Origin: Syncephalis plumigaleata
Taxonomy: Eukaryota > Zoopagomycota > Zoopagomycetes > Zoopagales > Piptocephalidaceae
NCBI GenBank assembly: GCA_025201365.1
Contig: JAIXMF010000005.1
Coordinates: 1,240,001 to 1,304,000, forward strand
Length of the DNA stretch: 64,000 nt
Direction: 5' to 3'
The notes beneath the pieces are model-generated. The model saw only the letters and a list, made by a program, of their open reading frames with translations. It had not been told where the DNA came from and did no database searches. The position numbers and the translations under genes were made by a program. Of this stretch, positions 12,890 through 64,000 are shown in pieces (position 1 is the first letter of the stretch; each line of letters opens with the position of its first letter).

Positions 12890-13123
12890 ACACTAGATAT
12901 AGTTATGACTTGTTGTAATCCAAGTGTAATGACAATATGTAGGAAGCATAGTTCTAAGGATACTGACATATGTGATGAAATAGTACTCGTGTAATCAATA
13001 TTCGAAGACCTCACTCGATATACGATGCTCATTCATGGCACACGATAAGTAATAAGCATAGTTGGAGTAGAAGAAAGAATCGGACGATGAATAGAGTAGA
13101 AGAATGCCCTATAGCATTACATA

Positions 13124-13129
13124 TTTATT
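13124..13129 (-). terminator. Poly(A) signal of copy A
   Basis: AATAAA on the minus strand, at the same place relative to the gene as in copy B. A 3-prime UTR intron after the stop is also conserved (donor at 13381, acceptor TTACAG). Confidence 0.5.
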
Positions 13130-13384
13130 CAATCAATGAACCAGCCATTATTTAATATTTATGTAATAGGACCATGGATGAATAGACCGAAGGGACTTGT
13201 AGATATGCTTGTAGTTGCTGTACCAAGGAATAGTGACTTGAATGATGTGGACACTAAAGGGTCTTGCACCAATACATTCTTGACTTGAATACCTATAATA
13301 TCTACTTGATGATGCCCTTGTCTTGTTCTGTAATCATAATGGATTAGTATAAGAATGATTATTTGTTGGATTGTTACTTACTGT

Positions 13385-15630
13385 TTAATCTCGTGGCTAT
13401 TCAATCAATTAATATAGATTGTATTGTGATTAGTGTAGCGTAGGTGATGATTGAAATGATAACTTACATCCTATCATAAAGGACATACATGGATCATGCG
13501 CCATACTGTAGTTAGTACTCATTCATACACTAGAGTCAGTGATATTTACTTACCCACTATCATACATGAGTATAAGTAGATCATGTGCCGTATTAATATC
13601 AATACACGCATACGTTATCATCGGGAATAGTAACTTACGCACTGTTATCCACAAATATATGGAAATCATGTGCGATGTTTATCATTAGTACGTCGTATAC
13701 TACGGTCAGAATGATAACTTACAGACTGGTATACAGGAACACATGTGGATTGTGTGGCATATTGATATTAGTACTCATTCATTCATCACAGTCAAAATAA
13801 TGACTTACAAACTATCATACATGAACATAAAGAAATCATATGCCATACTATCATTAGTACCCCATTCATTACAATTAGGTGATAACTTACGTTCTATCAT
13901 ACGGGAAATCATGCATCAAAGTATAATTAGTACATTCATTCACCACAACCAGAATGATTACTTACGCCCTATCATACAAGAATGTAGGCGGATAATGTGT
14001 CGTATCATAGTTAGTATGCCATACATTACGGCCAGAACGATTACTTACGTCCTGTTTATACGAAAACACGCATTGATTATGGATCATATTATAGTTAGTA
14101 CATCGATACATTGTAGCCAGAATAATGACTTACAGGCTGGTATACAGAAACATATGTAAATCACATGCAATACTATGATTAGTACCTCATACATTACGAT
14201 AAGAATGATTACTTACAGTCTATCAAACAGAAATATACGTGGATCGTGTGTCATAGCGTGGTTAGTACAGCATTCACTATAGTCAAAATGATAACTTACG
14301 CTCTATCATACACGAACGTATGCGGTAGTGGGCCACATTGGTATTAGTACACCTGATATTATGATCAGAATGATCACTTACATGCTGTAATACATGGGTG
14401 TATGTGGATCATGGGCGATATCATCGTTAGTACATTCATTCATTACGGTCAGAATGGCAACCTACGCACTGTTATAGGCAGATATACATAGATAGAGGGC
14501 CACATCATAATTAGTATACCATAGTTTATAAATGGAATGATAACTTACACACTGTCATACCGGGACATACGTATGGATTGTGTGTCATATTGTGATTATT
14601 AGCACATTCATTCACTGCGGTCAGAGTGATTACGTACCATCTATCATAGAGGAACGTATGTGGATCGTGTGTTATAGCGTGATTAGTACCTCATAGGTTA
14701 TAGGTAGACTATTAACTTACTCCCTGTTTATACACAAACACAGATGAAGCGTGCGCCATACCATAATTAGTATCTCATTCATCATGATCGGAATGATAAC
14801 TTACGTTCTATCATACATGAACATACGTAAGTCGTGTGCCATATCGAAGTTAGTGCGCCGTACAACATCACCAGAGTGATTACTTACGATCTATCATACA
14901 TGAGCATGTGTCATATCGTAGTTAGTACTTCATTTATTGCGGTCATAATGATTACTTACATCCTATCATACACAGACATGTGTTAATCGTGTGCCACGTT
15001 ATAATTAGTACCTCATTCGTTGCAGTCAGGATGATTACTTACAAACTATCATACAGGAAAATACAGGACGTATCCCATATTATAATTAGCTCATTCATAG
15101 ATTATAATCAGGATGATTACTTACTTGCTATTATACAACAACATATGTAGGTTGTCATAACGTGATTAGTACGTCATTCATTGCCATCATACTGATAACC
15201 TACGCACTGTGATAGACAAGTATATGGATTGTGTAACAGATTGTGATTAGTACTCGTACACTACGATCAAAATGATGACTTACAGCAGCTTGAAATGGTA
15301 ATCACATGTGGTTTCGATTTGTATTACAATTAGCATAGTGTCTGTTGTAGTCAATAGGATAGCTTACGAACTATTATTAACAAGTCAATACGTACAATAA
15401 ACATTATGATGTGATTAGCGTATCAAAACAACCATTTAATATACATGAACTTACGTTCTTTCGCTAATCATTGGTGGACAATGAAACAATAGACTACGAT
15501 TAGTACATCAATTGATAGGGTTACGGCCAGACATACCACGACGTTCCAGGGCAGGACTAGCTTCAACGGTGACCAGACTGGTGACAGCGACAACGGCGAC
15601 GGCAATAGCGATAACGGCAGAGAACTTCAT
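13385..15630 (-). CDS. Small secreted Cys-rich peptide encoded by single-codon exons, copy A
   Basis: Paralogue of the gene at 60982-63220. Exon 1 (15630-15537) encodes signal peptide MKFSAVIAIAVAVVAVTSLV, then TVEASPALERR. Then come exon 2 (15463-15455, 9 nt), exon 3 (15370-15368, 3 nt) and exon 4 (15288-15284, 5 nt). After exon 4 the phase is 0 and 22 exons of exactly 3 nt follow. Their lowest coordinates are 15204, 15125, 15043, 14960, 14888, 14805, 14721, 14638, 14549, 14466, 14382, 14300, 14217, 14134, 14049, 13966, 13891, 13809, 13723, 13639, 13554, 13468. The last exon (13396-13382) reads Pro-Arg-Asp-stop. Mature residues: AKELPA, CQFDINGMCC, HSTPDGNFSCWDPRD, pattern C-x7-CC-x9-C. Each exon is flanked by AG and GTAAGT or a variant (GTAGGT, GTACGT). 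Splicing is inferred from sequence. The agreement with copy B in exon number, phase, cysteines and stop is the main support. Confidence 0.85.
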
Positions 15631-15780
15631 GTTGATGTTGGCCTAGTAAAATGGATAGATAGCTCAGCTGACTAGAACGAGAGTAGAAAGTAGTGAGAGC
15701 AGAATAGAGTAGAAGAGAGTAGAGTAAAGTAGAAAAGTGAATATGAAGACGACAAGTCGAGTGTGTCAAAAAGTGCTTGA

Positions 15781-15786
15781 TTTATA
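15781..15786 (-). promoter_or_regulatory. TATA box of copy A
   Basis: TATAAA on the minus strand, 151 bp before the ATG, in the context GGCTATAAATCA shared with copy B. Between it and the ATG lies a CTCTACT-type pyrimidine-rich leader. Confidence 0.5.
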
Positions 15787-16114
15787 GCCGAGATGATGCT
15801 AAATATTCAGGTGGAATGTATGATGATGATGGCTATTGTGGTGTCATTCATTATACACGTGAGTAATTCCCCTAAGCATCTACTCCACATGCCGACATGT
15901 TGTAACGGCATGAAATGATATTATCACGCTGTATTACACATTTCACTACATTGTTTTAGCTTTAAGAGGCCTTCCCTCCTCATTTCCTTCATCCGGGATA
16001 TTTTTCACGGGACCTTATAATCAATCCTATGCTGCTATCCACTATTTCCTCCATACTCGTCACTTCCATTTCTCTTTTACCTGTTATTTCCAGGGAGAAA
16101 CATTCGCATTGGGA

Positions 16115-16297
16115 TTACTTTGGTGGTGGTGCGGTAGAAGTCGCCATTGTCCAAAAGTAGCAGGACTGGTATTCGGATAAACCGGTTTTTGTAAGAAGAA
16201 AACCGGAAGGTCCCAGCACCATGGACTTTTGGCCATACACTTTGCCAACCTCAATTCGAGTAAAAGAGATAAGTAAAACAGAGCATGTTACAGCCAT
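16115..16297 (-). other. Small upstream reading frame shared by both copies (copy A)
   Basis: 60 codons starting MAVTCSVLLISFTRIEVGKV, same strand as the array gene and about 670 bp upstream of its ATG. The first about 37 codons match copy B; after that the frames diverge through an indel. The start looks weakly like a signal peptide. It could be a first exon of another small gene, or chance openness in duplicated DNA. Confidence 0.2.
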
Positions 16298-16430
16298 TTC
16301 ATTTTCGAATAGAAATCTAGGCTAAATGAATAAAATAGCCAATCATTTAGCAAGGAGTGAAGTAACCGTCAGCTGCGATACAATGGCACAAATGCAAGCA
16401 TACAACAATGCACGAGTGTTCCACAATACC

Positions 16431-17734
16431 CGTTGCTTTCAAAGTGATCGGATTGGTCAGTCCAATGTAAGCAAGCTGGGGAATATGAGTATTTGCCGAA
16501 GGAGGAAGTGTTTAGTTGCTTGGAATTATCGAATGCAACTATCATTAGTCTAGGAACTGACGCTGCTCGTTTACATCCACCTATTTGTTCGACATCATTC
16601 TTTCCAGTCAATAAAAGTACTCATTTCCATCTTCACTTGTTTTAACTCCTTAGTCCCGCATTTCACTAACACTAGACATTATGCTATGCTCGGATTGTTA
16701 TGCGTATTACATGCATGTGTGGTGAGGATAGTCAGCTGCTCGATGAAGTCGATTAAGAAGTGGCTAGGTAAGAATAGGAAACATGCCTGCCTAGCTGGAC
16801 AGTGATGGTAAATCAAGTTGAATAGCCGATATTATGCTCTTTTAGCATAGAAATACGTGCGAATTACGAACAATACACGATAGCTTCCAATAATAGGGCG
16901 TGCATGTAATTATTATTCTGACTTGATTGTCACATTCATACAAATGTCATTCATTATCATGACATCTACATGACATGTTCATTTGTATGTCATCTATCAT
17001 TGCTCATTCCATTGTCAATTGACGTGATCAATACTGATTGCAATATATCACGACATGTCATCTAATGCTCCTACAATCATATGGACATGAACATACTTGA
17101 TGGTATCTATAATGCGATACGACATTCATCCAATCAATATGATCAATTATCATTATTGATTACGCTGTATAAACCAGCACACTTGATGATCTAATAAATC
17201 CATTCATTCATTTACATACACATGCAGTTTACTCTACCGACAACTTCCCAGTTGCTCATAGACTTGTGTAGCACATACTGAATCCTACTAGTACACTTAC
17301 TAGCAATGCTCAACATTATACCATCGCCCTTTGTCACTTTATCTATTTGTTGCTGAGCTATAAGCGGCATTATACCATTGCAGCAAAGTTATCAATGTCA
17401 TTAAATGATACGAAGCTTACATTGCCGTATTCACAATATACATACTCGAATAAACACAGATATTAAGCAATACAATACATGTTAATAATAATCATCATAT
17501 TGCTACTATTATTGAGTAGTTATCATGGCACTAGCATTTGAGGGTCATTGCTTCCACACATAAAATACGTAAGTATTATTAGCATAGCTATTATTTATTT
17601 GTAAAAAAGGATAACAGTGTTAATTGGATGGAAAAGTCTGTACCAATTATGATCATACTTTGACTTGAATCGCACCAATATTCAAATCGATAACTTGCTT
17701 CTCATTTCCTTCCTTTACTACCATATCGACTGTT
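16431..17734. other. Intergenic, 1.3 kb
   Basis: No supported gene. Repeated short words related to ATGTCAT and ATTCATT are frequent (16920-17060), with no clear periodicity. The right end is the promoter of the membrane-protein gene. Confidence 0.4.
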
Positions 17735-35113: not shown

Positions 35114-35962
35114 TCTTCATTATCATTCTAATTATTATTATTATATCTATTATATTTTGCTTTTGTGACTATCTCATCGTCTATCCTAGCTATTATTGTT
35201 TAAGTTAGAATACAGTAACATATACATTCATACCTACATACATATCAATTAATAAATAAATAATATATGATTTTATTTTATCCTTATAACCTTAGCATAG
35301 ATGAGAGATGTTTCTTGCTCTCTGATTATTCGTTGCATGTTTGTCTAGTGATGATGATGATGTGATGTGATTATTGATGTGAGCGGATAGTCCCAGCTTA
35401 AGCGAAGCCAAGGGACTGTCCTTTAGGTCGAACGACCAAAAAATTATAGCTGCCAAAACTCTTGATGGCGTTTCGGTGGTATTGCCGCAACGGCACTACC
35501 ATGACATTATGAAGAGATACAGCAAGTATATTACTACCGACTGTACGTAAACAAAATACGACAAGCGTATTCTGCCCTCTCCGTCACAGCCCCTTTATAA
35601 GGAGCAACTATTGCAGTTAGGATGGGTTGTGTGAATCAACCATATTCCCAAATTACATGATCATATTATGGGATTACTTGACATGTCAATGAAATGAATC
35701 GGTAATAGATTCGTGTTTGCTACAGGATAGAGACGATGAATCCGTATAGTTGTTAGCGAATACAATTCTCTATTATATTGGTTTATTTAGAAATTAAAGC
35801 ATGAACAAGAAAAAGCAAAAAGTATAAGAATAATGATGATGAATAATGGCAATGAACTTTTTTCTCTTTGAAAATAAATGTTGATTTAACGTAGTCTTGC
35901 GTCTTGACGACGTGCAACTCCCATGCGCTGCACGCCTTCTATTACTTCGCGTCGTAGAAGGT
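35114..35962. other. Spacer with clustered hairpins
   Basis: No protein gene. Three perfect or near-perfect inverted repeats lie close together: GGATAGTCCC (35385-35394) with GGGACTGTCC (35412-35421); GGTC-GAAC-GACC (35426-35437); and GGTATTGCCG-CAA-CGGCACTACC (35478-35500). Their density stands out from the surrounding AT-rich DNA. They could belong to a structured RNA, but I recognise no known RNA family, and no Pol III boxes or snRNA/snoRNA motifs are clear. Confidence 0.3.
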
Positions 35963-60331: not shown

Positions 60332-60535
60332 ATGGCTGTAACATGCTCTGTTTTACTTATCTCTTTTACTCGAATTGAGGCTGGCAAAGTGTATGGCCAA
60401 AAGTCCATGGTGCTGGGACCTTCCGGTTTTTTTCTTACAAAACTGGCTTATCCAAACACCAGTCCTGCTGCTTTTGGACAACGATGTCCCCTATCACGTC
60501 GCCGAGACAATCCCAATGCGAATGTTTCTTTCTAG
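60332..60535 (+). other. Small upstream reading frame shared by both copies (copy B)
   Basis: 67 codons starting MAVTCSVLLISFTRIEAGKV, then YGQKSMVLGPSGFF. One residue differs from copy A in the first 20; the match ends at about codon 37. See the copy A entry for alternatives. Confidence 0.2.
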
Positions 60536-60836
60536 AAATAACAGGTAAAAGAGAAATGGGAATGGCGAGTATGGAGGAAATAGTGGATAGCAGCATAGGA
60601 TTGGGTTACAAGGTCCCGTGAAAAAGATCTCAGGTAAAGGAAATAAGGAGAGAAGGCCTATTAGAGCTAAAACAATGTAATGAAATGTGTAATGCAGCGG
60701 GATAATATCATTTTATGCTGTTACAACATGTCGGCATGTGGAGTAGATGCTTAGGGGAATTACTCGCGTGAATAATGAATGACGCCACGATAGCCATCAT
60801 CATGCTTTCCACCTAAATATTTAGCATCATCTCGGC

Positions 60837-60843
60837 TATAAAT
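60837..60843 (+). promoter_or_regulatory. TATA box of copy B
   Basis: TATAAAT in the context GGCTATAAATCA, 145 bp before the ATG at 60982, conserved in copy A. A CTCTACT-type pyrimidine-rich leader (60886-60936) follows. Confidence 0.5.
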
Positions 60844-60981
60844 CAAGCACTTTTGACACACCCAACTTGCCATCCTCATATTCACTCTTCTACTCTACTC
60901 TACTCTACTTTCTCTACTCTACTATCTACTCTCGTTCTAGTCAGCTGAGCTATCTATCCATTCCATTAGGCCAACATCAAC

Positions 60982-63220
60982 ATGAAGTTCTCTGCCGTTA
61001 TTGCCATTGCCGCCGCCGTCGTCGCTCTCACCAGTCTGGTCGCCGTTGAAGCTAGTCCCGCATTGGTCCGTCGTGGTATGTCTGGCCGTGACCCTATCAA
61101 TTGATGTACTAATCGTAGTCTATTGTTTCATTGTCCACCGATGATTAGCGAAAGATCGTAAGTTCATGTATATTAAATGGTTGTTTTGACATGCTAATCA
61201 CATCATAATGTTTATTGTACGTATTGACTTGTTAATAATAGTTCGTAAGCTATCCTATTGACTACAACAGACACTATGCTAATTGTAATACAAATCAAAA
61301 TTATGTGATTACCATTTCAAGCTGCTGTAAGTTACCATTTTGATTGTAGTGTACGAGTACTAACAACATCTGTTACACAATCCATATACTTGTCTATCAC
61401 AGTGCGTAGGTTAACATTTTGATCGTAATGAATGACGTACTAATCACGTTATGACACATAACCTACATATATTCCTGTATAATAGGAAGTAAGTCATTGT
61501 TCTGACCGTAATGAATGAAGTACTAATTATGGTATGGGACACGTCCTGTATGTTCCTGTATGATAGTGGGTAAGTCATCATTCTGACTGCAACGAATGAG
61601 ATACTAACAATAGTATGGCACACGATTAACACATGTCTGTGTATGATAGGATGTAAGTTATCATTATGACCGCAATAAATGAAGTACTAACTACGATATG
61701 ACACATGATCCTGTATGATAGTATGTAAGTAATCACTCTGGTGATGTTGTACGGCGCACTAACTTCGATATTGCACACGACTTACGTATGTTCCTGTATG
61801 ATAGAACGTAAGTTATTATTCCGATTGTGATGAATGAGATACTAATTATGATATGGCACACGTTTCATCTGTGTTTGTGTATAAACAGGGCGTAAGTTAA
61901 TAGTCTACCTATAACCTATGAGGTACTAATCACGCTATAACACACGATTCACATACGTTCCTCTATGATAGTATGTAAGTAACCACTCTGACCGCAGTGA
62001 ATGAATGTGCTAATACTGATATGGCCCGCAATCCATACGTATGCCCCGGTATGATAGTGTGTAAGTTATCATTTCATTTATAAACTATGGTGTACTAATT
62101 ACAATCTGCCATACAATTCATATATCTGCCTATAACAGTGTGTAGGTTGCCATTATGACCGTAATGAATGAATGTACTAACTATGATATCGCCCATGATC
62201 CACATACGCCCATGTATTACAGCATGTAAGTGATCATTCTGATCATAATATCAAGTGTACTAATACCAATGTGGCCCACTACCGCATACGTTCGTGTATG
62301 ATAGAGCGTAAGTTATCATTTTGACTACAGTGAATGAATGTACTAACCACGCTATGACATACGATCCACGTATATTTCTGTTTGATAGACTGTAAGTAAT
62401 CATTCTTATCGTAATGTATGAGGCACTAATCATAGTACGGCATGTGATTTACATATGTTTCTGTATACCAGCCTGTAAGTCATTATTCTGGCTACAATGT
62501 ATCGATGTACTAATTATGCTATGGCACACGATTAACACATGTCTGTGTATGATAGGGAGTAAGTAATCGTTCTGGCCGTAATGTATGGCATACTAACTAT
62601 GATACGACACATTATCCATCTACGTTCTTGTATGATAGGGCGTAAGTAATGATTCTGACTGTGGAGAATGAATGTACTAATTATACTTTGATGCATGATC
62701 TCCCGTATGATAGGGCGTAAGTTATCACTCTGATTGTAATGAGTGGGGTACTAATCATAGTATGGCACATGATTTCTTTATGTTCATGTATGATAGTTTG
62801 TAAGTCATTATTCTGACTGTAACCTATGAGGTACTAATCAAGCTATGACATATAATCCACGTATGTTCTCGTATGACAGTCTGTAAGTAATCATTCTGAC
62901 CGTATTATACGACGTACTAATGATAAACATGGCACATGATTTCCATACATTTGTGGATAACAGTGCGTAAGTTACTATTCCCGATGATAACGTATAGGTG
63001 TACTGATATTAATACGGCACATGATCTACTTATACTCATGTATGATAGTGGGTAAGTAAATATCGCTGACTCTAATGTATGAATGAGTACTAACTACAGT
63101 ATGGCGCATGATCCATGTATGTCCTTTATGATAGGATGTAAGTTATCATTTCAATCATCACCTACGCTACACTAATCACAATACAATCTATATTAATTGA
63201 TTGAATAGCCACGAGATTAA
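60982..63220 (+). CDS. Small secreted Cys-rich peptide encoded by single-codon exons, copy B
   Basis: A 62-residue prepropeptide from 27 exons. Exon 1 (60982-61075, 94 nt) encodes signal peptide MKFSAVIAIAAAVVALTSLV, then AVEASPALVRR (dibasic, Kex2-like). Exon 2 is 61149-61157 (9 nt), exon 3 61242-61244, exon 4 61322-61326 (5 nt). 94+9+3+5=111, so phase is 0 from here. Then 22 exons of 3 nt start at 61403, 61486, 61567, 61650, 61722, 61805, 61889, 61972, 62058, 62139, 62223, 62305, 62389, 62472, 62556, 62639, 62714, 62797, 62880, 62964, 63049, 63135. Exon 27 starts at 63209 and reads Pro-Arg-Asp-stop (63218-63220). Mature peptide: AKDLPA, CEWDYNGYCC, HSTPGGGFSCWDPRD. Four Cys, C-x7-CC-x9-C, suggest two disulfides. 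Introns of the array are 69-83 nt, with GTAAGT or GTAGGT donors, TACTAA-type branch sites and TATGATAG- or AACAG-type acceptors. Target and role are unknown. Confidence 0.88.
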
Positions 63221-63223
63221 GCA

Positions 63224-63275
63224 GTAAGTAATAATCCACAATAATCATGCCCATACTAATCCATTATGATTACAG
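63224..63275 (+). other. 3-prime UTR intron of copy B
   Basis: GTAAGT donor three bases after the stop, CATACTAATC branch site and TTACAG acceptor. Conserved in copy A. The junction lies very close to the stop codon, so nonsense-mediated decay is not expected from it. Confidence 0.6.
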
Positions 63276-63470
63276 GACAAGACAAGGACATCATCAAGTA
63301 GATATTATAGGTATTCAAGTCAAGAATGTATTGGTGCAAGTCCCTCATTTAGTGTCCATACCATTCAAGTCATTATTCCTTGGATCAAGAAATATATCTA
63401 CAAGTCTCTTACGTCTATTCATCCATGGTCCTATTACATAAATATCAACTAATGGCTGGTTCATTGATTG

Positions 63471-63476
63471 AATAAA
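63471..63476 (+). terminator. Poly(A) signal of copy B
   Basis: AATAAA about 195 bp after the UTR intron; the same motif is at the matching place in copy A. Confidence 0.5.
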
Positions 63477-63811
63477 TATGTAATGCTATAGGGCATTCTT
63501 CTACTCTATTCATCGTTGATTCTTTCTTCTACTCCAACTATGCTTATTACTTATCGTGTGCATGAATGAGCATTGTATATCGAGTGAGGTCGTCGAATAT
63601 TGCTTACATGATGCTATTTCATCACATATGTCAGTACCCTTAGAACTATGCTTCCTACATATTGTCATTACACTTGGATTACAACATGTCATAGTTATGC
63701 CTAGGTTGAAAGTGGACAACCTTTTCTCATGTTTATATTAAATGTAAAAAAGTGTAATCACTTTATTCATCGATGGCAACTCTTTGTTAACGTCTTTGTA
63801 TGCGCAATTGA

Positions 63812-64000
63812 TTATTCAAAACGATTTTCAATACGCTTCTCATTGGACAATGATTTCAACTTGTCAATCAATTCGGATAGCACATGTGTTTGTCCCTTGG
63901 CCTTGCTGCCAACATCATCGCGATTGCGTACGTTCACGGATTGCGTATCCAGCTCTTCTTGACCCACGACTAATAGGTGAATAGTAGTAGTAAGTTAATT
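63812..64000 (-). CDS. THS1: Threonyl-tRNA synthetase, C-terminal exon (gene continues past the window)
   Basis: The last exon (63969-63812) encodes VVGQEELDTQSVNVRNRDDV, then LSELIDKLKSLSNEKRIE and a stop. This matches the end of the anticodon-binding domain of cytosolic class II threonyl-tRNA synthetase (VVGEKE, VNVRTRD in relatives). The acceptor is CACCTATTAG at 63970. From there to 64000 is intron, whose donor is outside the window. The stop lies about 100 bp from the edge of duplicated segment B, so this gene converges with the single-codon-exon gene. Related aaRS anticodon domains (ProRS, GlyRS) fit less well. Confidence 0.78.

Follow-up and report, generated by a model that had tools for sequence, protein, structure and literature searches.

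Arrays of single-codon exons in a predicted family of secreted-peptide genes of Syncephalis plumigaleata

Can most of a secreted peptide be assembled from exons that hold a single codon each? This question is raised by a locus in a 64,000-nucleotide (nt) stretch of the genome of Syncephalis plumigaleata, a member of the Zoopagales (contig JAIXMF010000005.1, positions 1,240,001 to 1,304,000; hereafter the window). The locus, referred to as the window gene, spans 60982-63223 on the plus strand and contains 22 exons of 3 nt in tandem from 61403 to 63137. We are highly confident that it is a working gene of a large S. plumigaleata family, which encodes rapidly diversifying secreted peptides one codon per exon. 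The anatomy of the arrays, their frame and their pattern of change are directly observed. The original prediction took each trinucleotide for one codon, and this is sustained by the absence of stops among 787 such codons, complete frames in 19 of 31 parsed loci, exon divergence in which cysteines are kept, a codon choice that obeys splicing rules and three deposited protein models.

Anatomy and extent of the arrays

The window gene opens with four exons of 94, 9, 3 and 5 nt, which sum to 111 nt and place the array in phase 0. The 21 introns separating the single-codon exons measure 69-83 nt and contain an exact TACTAA in 17 cases and a one-base variant, e.g. CACTAA or TACTGA, in the remaining four, with GTAAGT or GTAGGT as donors in the array. 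Joined, the codons read CEWDYNGYCCHSTPGGGFSCWD and continue into Pro-Arg-Asp and a stop. The 22 exons of the original prediction, with their coordinates and codons, were all found in place on reading the sequence, as were phase 0 ahead of the array, a TACTAA-type branch site in each intron, the cysteine spacing C-x7-CC-x9-C and the junction to the terminal Pro-Arg-Asp. A splice-signal parser, which makes no use of the reading frame past the start codon, recovers identical exons. In the following list, the 9-, 3- and 5-nt exons come from the splice-signal parse, the single-codon exons from site search and parse, and the last coding exon from sequence and parse; the sites in exon 1 are predicted from general features of such sequences.

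60837..60844 (+): TATA-box-like TATAAATC, 145 nt before the ATG
60982..61075 (+): exon 1, 94 nt, putative signal peptide and Kex2-like Arg-Arg site
61149..61157 (+): 9-nt exon
61242..61244 (+): 3-nt leading exon
61322..61326 (+): 5-nt exon, which sets the phase to 0
61403..61405 (+): single-codon exon TGC (C)
61486..61488 (+): single-codon exon GAA (E)
61567..61569 (+): single-codon exon TGG (W)
61650..61652 (+): single-codon exon GAT (D)
61722..61724 (+): single-codon exon TAT (Y)
61805..61807 (+): single-codon exon AAC (N)
61889..61891 (+): single-codon exon GGC (G)
61972..61974 (+): single-codon exon TAT (Y)
62058..62060 (+): single-codon exon TGT (C)
62139..62141 (+): single-codon exon TGT (C)
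62223..62225 (+): single-codon exon CAT (H)
62305..62307 (+): single-codon exon AGC (S)
62389..62391 (+): single-codon exon ACT (T)
62472..62474 (+): single-codon exon CCT (P)
62556..62558 (+): single-codon exon GGA (G)
62639..62641 (+): single-codon exon GGC (G)
62714..62716 (+): single-codon exon GGC (G)
62797..62799 (+): single-codon exon TTT (F)
62880..62882 (+): single-codon exon TCT (S)
62964..62966 (+): single-codon exon TGC (C)
63049..63051 (+): single-codon exon TGG (W)
63135..63137 (+): single-codon exon GAT (D)
63209..63223 (+): last coding exon, 15 nt, Pro-Arg-Asp-stop (TAA 63218-63220)
63224..63275 (+): putative intron in the 3' untranslated region (GTAAGT...TACTAA...ACAG, read by eye)

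The window contains a second array gene, on the minus strand, which the original prediction had missed; the two are 91% identical across the part that was searched.

13382..15630 (-): second array gene
15537-15630 (-): its exon 1, followed by leading exons of 9, 3 and 5 nt
15204-15206 down to 13468-13470 (-): its 22 single-codon exons
13382-13396 (-): its last coding exon

The longest run of AG-NNN-GTRRGT sites spaced 60-95 nt apart in the window comprises 22 sites on the plus and 14 on the minus strand. It drops to 1 on either strand once 13001-16500 and 60501-64000 are cut out, and is likewise 1 on the plus strand in 100 shuffles of the window that preserve dinucleotide content, which excludes a chance origin of the arrays.

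The S. plumigaleata assembly (32.6 Mb, 383 contigs) was searched for further copies. The window gene used as a DNA query gave 88 matches, frequently several to one locus, and the signal-peptide exon used as a protein query gave at least 150 genomic matches. Among the 150 matches listed, 70 have an open frame of 44 codons, some of them second copies on small contigs; this frame is the mark of exon 1 read through into a similar intron 1. The mark is dispensable, as several parsed array genes (L031, L036 and L043 among them) lack it, and it has predictive value: three of three new copies chosen by it (L057, L058 and L060) carry single-codon arrays, two of which read in frame to TAAGCA. The sole long-frame copy fetched (L059) has no array, and the same signal exon therefore heads not only array genes but also at least one gene that lacks an array. 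With these three copies added to 31 parsed loci, 34 array loci were examined in total.

The parser combines preferences for donor, branch site and acceptor with intron length, allowing introns of 40-130 nt and exons of at least 1 nt, and starts at the family ATG followed by 27 open codons. It was relaxed twice upon inspection of failures, on splice criteria rather than frame. Seventeen of the 31 loci, including the window gene, have a complete frame by rule, open from the ATG through a terminal exon that closes with TAAGCR; two more (g02 and L032) reach a stop on inspection while failing the terminal-exon rule. TAAGCR followed by GTAAG occurs exactly once in 26 of the 31 loci and is absent from the other five, and a TATAAATY motif lies at most 190 nt upstream in 26 of the 31.

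Unit statistics were compiled on 29 loci after dropping L054 (99.6% identical to L052) and L040, which agrees with L041 at 95% of 2737 aligned bases and may be a separate copy. Internal exons past the leading ones are exactly 3 nt long in 787 of 810 cases, and the others measure 2 (five), 5 (seven), 6 (six), 9 (three), 31 and 41 nt (one each); those of 5, 9, 31 and 41 nt are mostly leading exons or parser merges. A locus holds 8-45 exons of 3 nt, and the array introns, 57-88 nt long, are spread over all three classes modulo 3. Among the 787 codons, 37.2 stops would be expected from position-specific base composition and none occurs.

The array of L029 is preceded by five 9-nt exons, two of which are identical, as if a larger unit had been duplicated along with its intron.

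Splice signals, codon choice and divergence

Major-class (U2-type) introns have GT-AG ends, a GTAAGT-like donor and a TACTAAC-like branch site. As judged from their signals, the array introns belong to this class: the donor is GTAAGT for 658 of the 787 exons and GC for seven, the acceptor in front of them is TAG (556), CAG (228) or AAG (3), and an exact TACTAA occurs in 570 of the 787 preceding introns. In the mechanism that we propose, exon 1 would encode a signal peptide with a terminal Arg-Arg processing site and the array the mature peptide. Signals that are mostly strong (GTAAGT donor, TACTAA branch site, TAG/CAG acceptor) would allow recognition by the major spliceosome through intron definition on introns of about 80 nt, which would probably be removed in an order that clears one neighbour before the next. 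Codon bases would be kept free of competing acceptors, and the codons would be joined in phase 0 with an in-frame stop after the array. Codons change faster than introns, and units can come and go without frameshift. Splicing in the cell, with every exon included in the mRNA, is what the genomic sequence would predict.

The codons themselves appear in agreement with this scheme when compared with 3243 codons from 13 long open reading frames (ORFs) of the window, a set drawn mechanically rather than curated, which counts against the comparison. Codons ending in YA make up 6 of the 787 single-codon exons and 509 of the 3243 ORF codons; they are avoided, and together with the G of the donor they would create a competing YAG acceptor. 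RA-ending codons, by comparison, are not avoided (153/557 vs 348/1524 in ORFs). In 3' splice sites, strength decreases from CAG to AAG to GAG. CAG itself is absent as an exon (0/29 vs 40/123 in ORFs), AAG is scarce (4/59 vs 55/116) and GAG is equally common in both sets (24/45 vs 77/162), and this order of avoidance matches that of splice site strength, which indicates that codon choice follows splicing. G-ending codons are also rare (38/735 vs 562/3115, with ATG and TGG left out). Furthermore, the first and third bases are coupled: with cysteine excluded, codons starting with a purine end in C over T at 195:95 and those starting with a pyrimidine prefer T (21:133), and with cysteine included the ratios are 195:95 vs 69:179. 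This coupling holds in 27 of 28 scorable genes, and ORFs tend weakly the reverse way. Contrary to expectation, the single-codon exons do not use codons as ordinary genes do (Spearman 0.02 for raw counts and 0.26 for relative synonymous usage), and part of the departure follows the splicing rules.

For eight paralog pairs, with no gene in more than one pair, the introns served to align the units one by one. Units whose introns differed by more than 30% were passed over and pairs needed at least eight aligned units, three of the eight pairs resting on 9, 9 and 13. Exon bases differ at 101 of 387 positions (26%) and intron bases at 799 of 10120 (8%), with p below 0.01 for the exon excess in seven of the eight pairs and the clearest case in L035/L044 (exon 21/78 vs intron 74/2020). 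By position, the difference amounts to 22, 26 and 30% at exon bases 1-3, 0% at -1/-2 and 0-5% at +1 to +6. Cysteine is retained at 21 of 21 positions and other residues at 63 of 108 (p 7e-5), and three of the 21 retained cysteines changed synonymously between TGC and TGT. Diversifying selection on a peptide held by disulphides would give this pattern, and a non-coding repeat would hardly do so.

It is conceivable, and we advance it tentatively, that the codon is itself the unit of evolution in these genes, with introns acting as homology arms, single codons being swapped, inserted and deleted as cassettes across genes and positions without frameshift, and an in-codon splicing grammar deciding which codons are usable. 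Units can be gained and lost without frameshift because each is one codon flanked by repeated intron sequence. L048 (17 units) and L050 (29 units), the introns of which differ by 0.8% over the 17 shared units, thus differ by 12 whole units, in frame. Moreover, 34 of the 45 non-synonymous codon changes in the eight pairs alter two or three bases, and the flanks of some differ by 0-7%. Units at non-homologous positions that match best in their flanks have the same codon in 13.5% of cases by the upstream flank, 12.2% by the downstream flank and 16.5% by both flanks, compared with 4.1-4.2% in within-gene permutations, the highest of 500 reaching 6.6-7.4%. With both flanks, sharing is 15.9% where the neighbour codons differ and 57% in the top tenth. 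GC donors accompany solely TGG (7/7), and GTACGT solely ATG (4/4).

The excess identity of same-codon units, with cysteine left out, lies mainly at -3 to -5 and -11, and is weaker at +6, +14 and +17. Local splice context could explain part of the flank likeness at -3 to -5 and -11, and a long-range linkage between codon and flank, considered as a simple proof of cassette shuffling, is weakened accordingly. Single-codon exchange between units is possible, the alternative being strong selection on point mutations.

Deposited models and competing explanations

A profile built from 19 spliced products found 27 deposited proteins, 18 of them S. plumigaleata entries; no model of the window gene was seen among the 27. 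Compared with the predictions by alignment alone, P0001 contains 41 of the 48 predicted residues past residue 36 of L039, P0006 40 of 45 of L034 and P0012 30 of 42 of L051, counted in the same way. Presumably, some pipeline joined dozens of these exons independently. The models appear to support the one-codon exons, without counting as evidence from RNA. A like signal peptide heads ordinary long-frame proteins, namely L059 and P0023 of this species and P0022. P0019-P0022 and P0024-P0027 (jgi, ena) have close signal peptides, and the ends of some resemble exon 1 read past Arg-Arg-Gly into an intron, a hint that related species may have array genes too.

Several observations weigh against working genes that are spliced throughout. 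P0001, P0006 and P0012 omit some predicted exons, P0002 has only a short stretch in common with L044 (13/38), and P0009, set against L047, stops after exon 1 inside intron-1 sequence and lacks the array; the deposited models may be computer predictions. P0001 also diverges from its prediction at the C-terminal end. The parser's signal preferences were set by hand once the family had been seen. The probability of finding no stop, about 3e-17, holds for independent loci, and the loci are related. Among the paralogs, two intron positions, -11 at 22.7% and +7 at 21.7%, reach about the variability of the first exon base (other intron positions within 30 bases differ by 0-16%), and the pair L053/L056 is an exception to the exon excess (exon 0/24 vs intron 56/610). 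The array of L058 did not close in the parse. Finally, the frame is incomplete in 12 of the 31 loci: L036, L038, L043 and L045 each have a single 2-nt exon among the 3-nt exons of the array, which may stem from sequencing error, decay or a real change of frame, the exon 1 frame is shifted in L033 and L054, the array of L040 is interrupted, and the parse fails at the start or end of L029, L042, L052, L055 and L056. Parser failures in the leading exons persist in L029, L036, L052, L054 and L056.

The omitted exons bear on an explanation that we consider possible at a tentative level, i.e. that the arrays are transcribed and splicing passes over many of the 3-nt exons, mainly where the donor is weak, which would yield an in-frame mixture of peptides differing by single codons. 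In loci with a complete frame, each array exon is a whole codon in phase 0, and any subset would hence stay in frame. P0006 fits in part: it omits five array residues, three of which correspond to certain exons with donors other than GTAAGT (TGC and CCT with GTAGGT, CGG with GTAAAT), and the C of CC and the E of EE have two candidate exons each, one with GTAGGT or GTAGAT. The same model, on the other hand, retains exons with GTAAGC and GTACGT. P0001 omits exons with GTAGGT, GTGAGT and GTAAGC, yet CCT and the 2-nt exon, which it omits as well, have GTAAGT, and it retains exons with GTGAGT and GTAGGC. Given such mixed donors among kept and omitted exons, the preferences of a gene finder explain the pattern in P0001 and P0006 equally well.

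The incomplete frames could also be taken to mean that the arrays were formerly coding and are now mostly silent or broken, as the 2-nt exon in four copies and the shifted exon 1 frame in two would suggest. We consider this improbable, as the window gene, 16 further loci by rule and two on inspection are complete, and L048 and L050, at an intron difference of 0.8%, differ by three amino acids over 17 codons, none of which has become a stop. L052 and L054 are 99.6% identical with 15 gap columns; small indels thus separate near-duplicate contigs, and some of the 2-nt exons or frame shifts may be sequencing errors.

Least probable, and rejected here, is a non-coding, minisatellite-like intron array with splice-like motifs that is removed as one large intron or left unspliced: part of the array is detected as a tandem repeat with an 83-nt period and tandem repeats can spread without function, but the lack of stops, the constancy of exon length amid variable introns, exon bases that differ more than introns with cysteines retained, frames that reach the conserved stop in 17 of the 31 loci and the test on chains of sites all stand against it.

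Predicted products and other short-exon genes

The N terminus of the predicted products is hydrophobic, ten of its residues are invariant in 19 of 19 aligned products, and Arg-Arg stands at residues 30-31 in 17 of the 19 (by eye). The exon 1 product would be a signal peptide ending in a Kex2-type Arg-Arg processing site, and the C-x-CC-x-C pattern, which is frequent in the products, presumably forms two disulphides. From the look of the N terminus the products are predicted to be secreted. None of the 19 products has a Pfam match above the curated cut-off, the best having an E-value of 0.017: one product matches CBM_14 (PF01607) at 15.7 bits, below the cut-off of 22.1. This weak match is only a lead to possible chitin binding. 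P0023 has sub-threshold Pfam matches down to E 0.003. A relative of the products was sought in PDB, and the best match reached only E 0.029.

Syncephalis is counted among the mycoparasites in a published account (PMC6784888). The products would most likely be secreted effectors or antimicrobial-type peptides directed against host fungi in an arms race.

Families of secreted proteins with short exons are described in several reports. The pea aphid gene KQY1a has 37 exons, 33 of them of 15 bp or less, with sizes of 6-416 bp over 45.7 kb (PMC7495047). As in the KQY/KHI cassette effectors, which combine a conserved signal-peptide region with divergent secreted parts from miniature exons, exon 1 of the array genes is common to a gene without an array (L059); KQY1a is an insect gene, and its exons do not form a tandem series of exactly 3 nt each between introns of about 80 nt (PMC7495047). 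Schistosome MEG genes have 10-20 short exons of 6-81 bp (3-81 in the abstract), mostly of 15 bp, and introns of 0.1-5 kb (PMC10526429). They encode secreted proteins of a parasite that share a conserved signal peptide, as is predicted for the products here, and alternative splicing adds to protein diversity in such families. Their numerous short exons are mostly multiples of three, as are the 787 of 810 internal exons here; the ranges differ, a S. plumigaleata locus having 8-45 exons of 3 nt, separated by introns of 57-88 nt, in place of the MEG exons of 6-81 bp and introns of 0.1-5 kb. Aphid bicycle genes are a further fast-evolving family of putative effectors, in an insect, for which sequence search is reported to find few homologs and gene structure is put forward instead (PMC9168663). 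We regard the array genes as an extreme and presumably unrelated variant of this kind of short-exon secreted gene.

Exons of 1-3 nt can be spliced, including by fungal spliceosomes, as reports on a 1-nt exon in Arabidopsis APC11 (PMC4674806), a 1-nt exon in Fusarium CYP621A (PMC12940212) and a 3-bp exon in Drosophila hth (PMC7392893) indicate. In these cases a single tiny exon sits in an ordinary gene, unlike a gene composed of them. In the literature searched, which excluded most subscription papers and bioRxiv preprints, no gene made of tandem single-codon exons was found, and within that same scope the original prediction's description of the architecture as undescribed survives.

In the array genes, exon size is reduced to one codon for most of the mature protein, dozens in a row, at 34 loci examined in one genome and possibly at twice that number. 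Ideas on exon recognition, including the spliceosome crowding expected at exons of 3 nt, would need to make room for such arrays, which provide a natural test bed for the recognition of tiny exons because their three bases obey a visible rule. They also suggest how a parasite could alter the peptides that it secretes by single codons, with the frame kept. Moreover, they indicate that families of secreted peptides can evade standard gene finding and, probably, short-read alignment.

The window also contains a match to the U11 spliceosomal RNA at 35401-35598 on the minus strand (53.7 bits vs a cut-off of 39), and S. plumigaleata thus seems to have retained the minor spliceosome.

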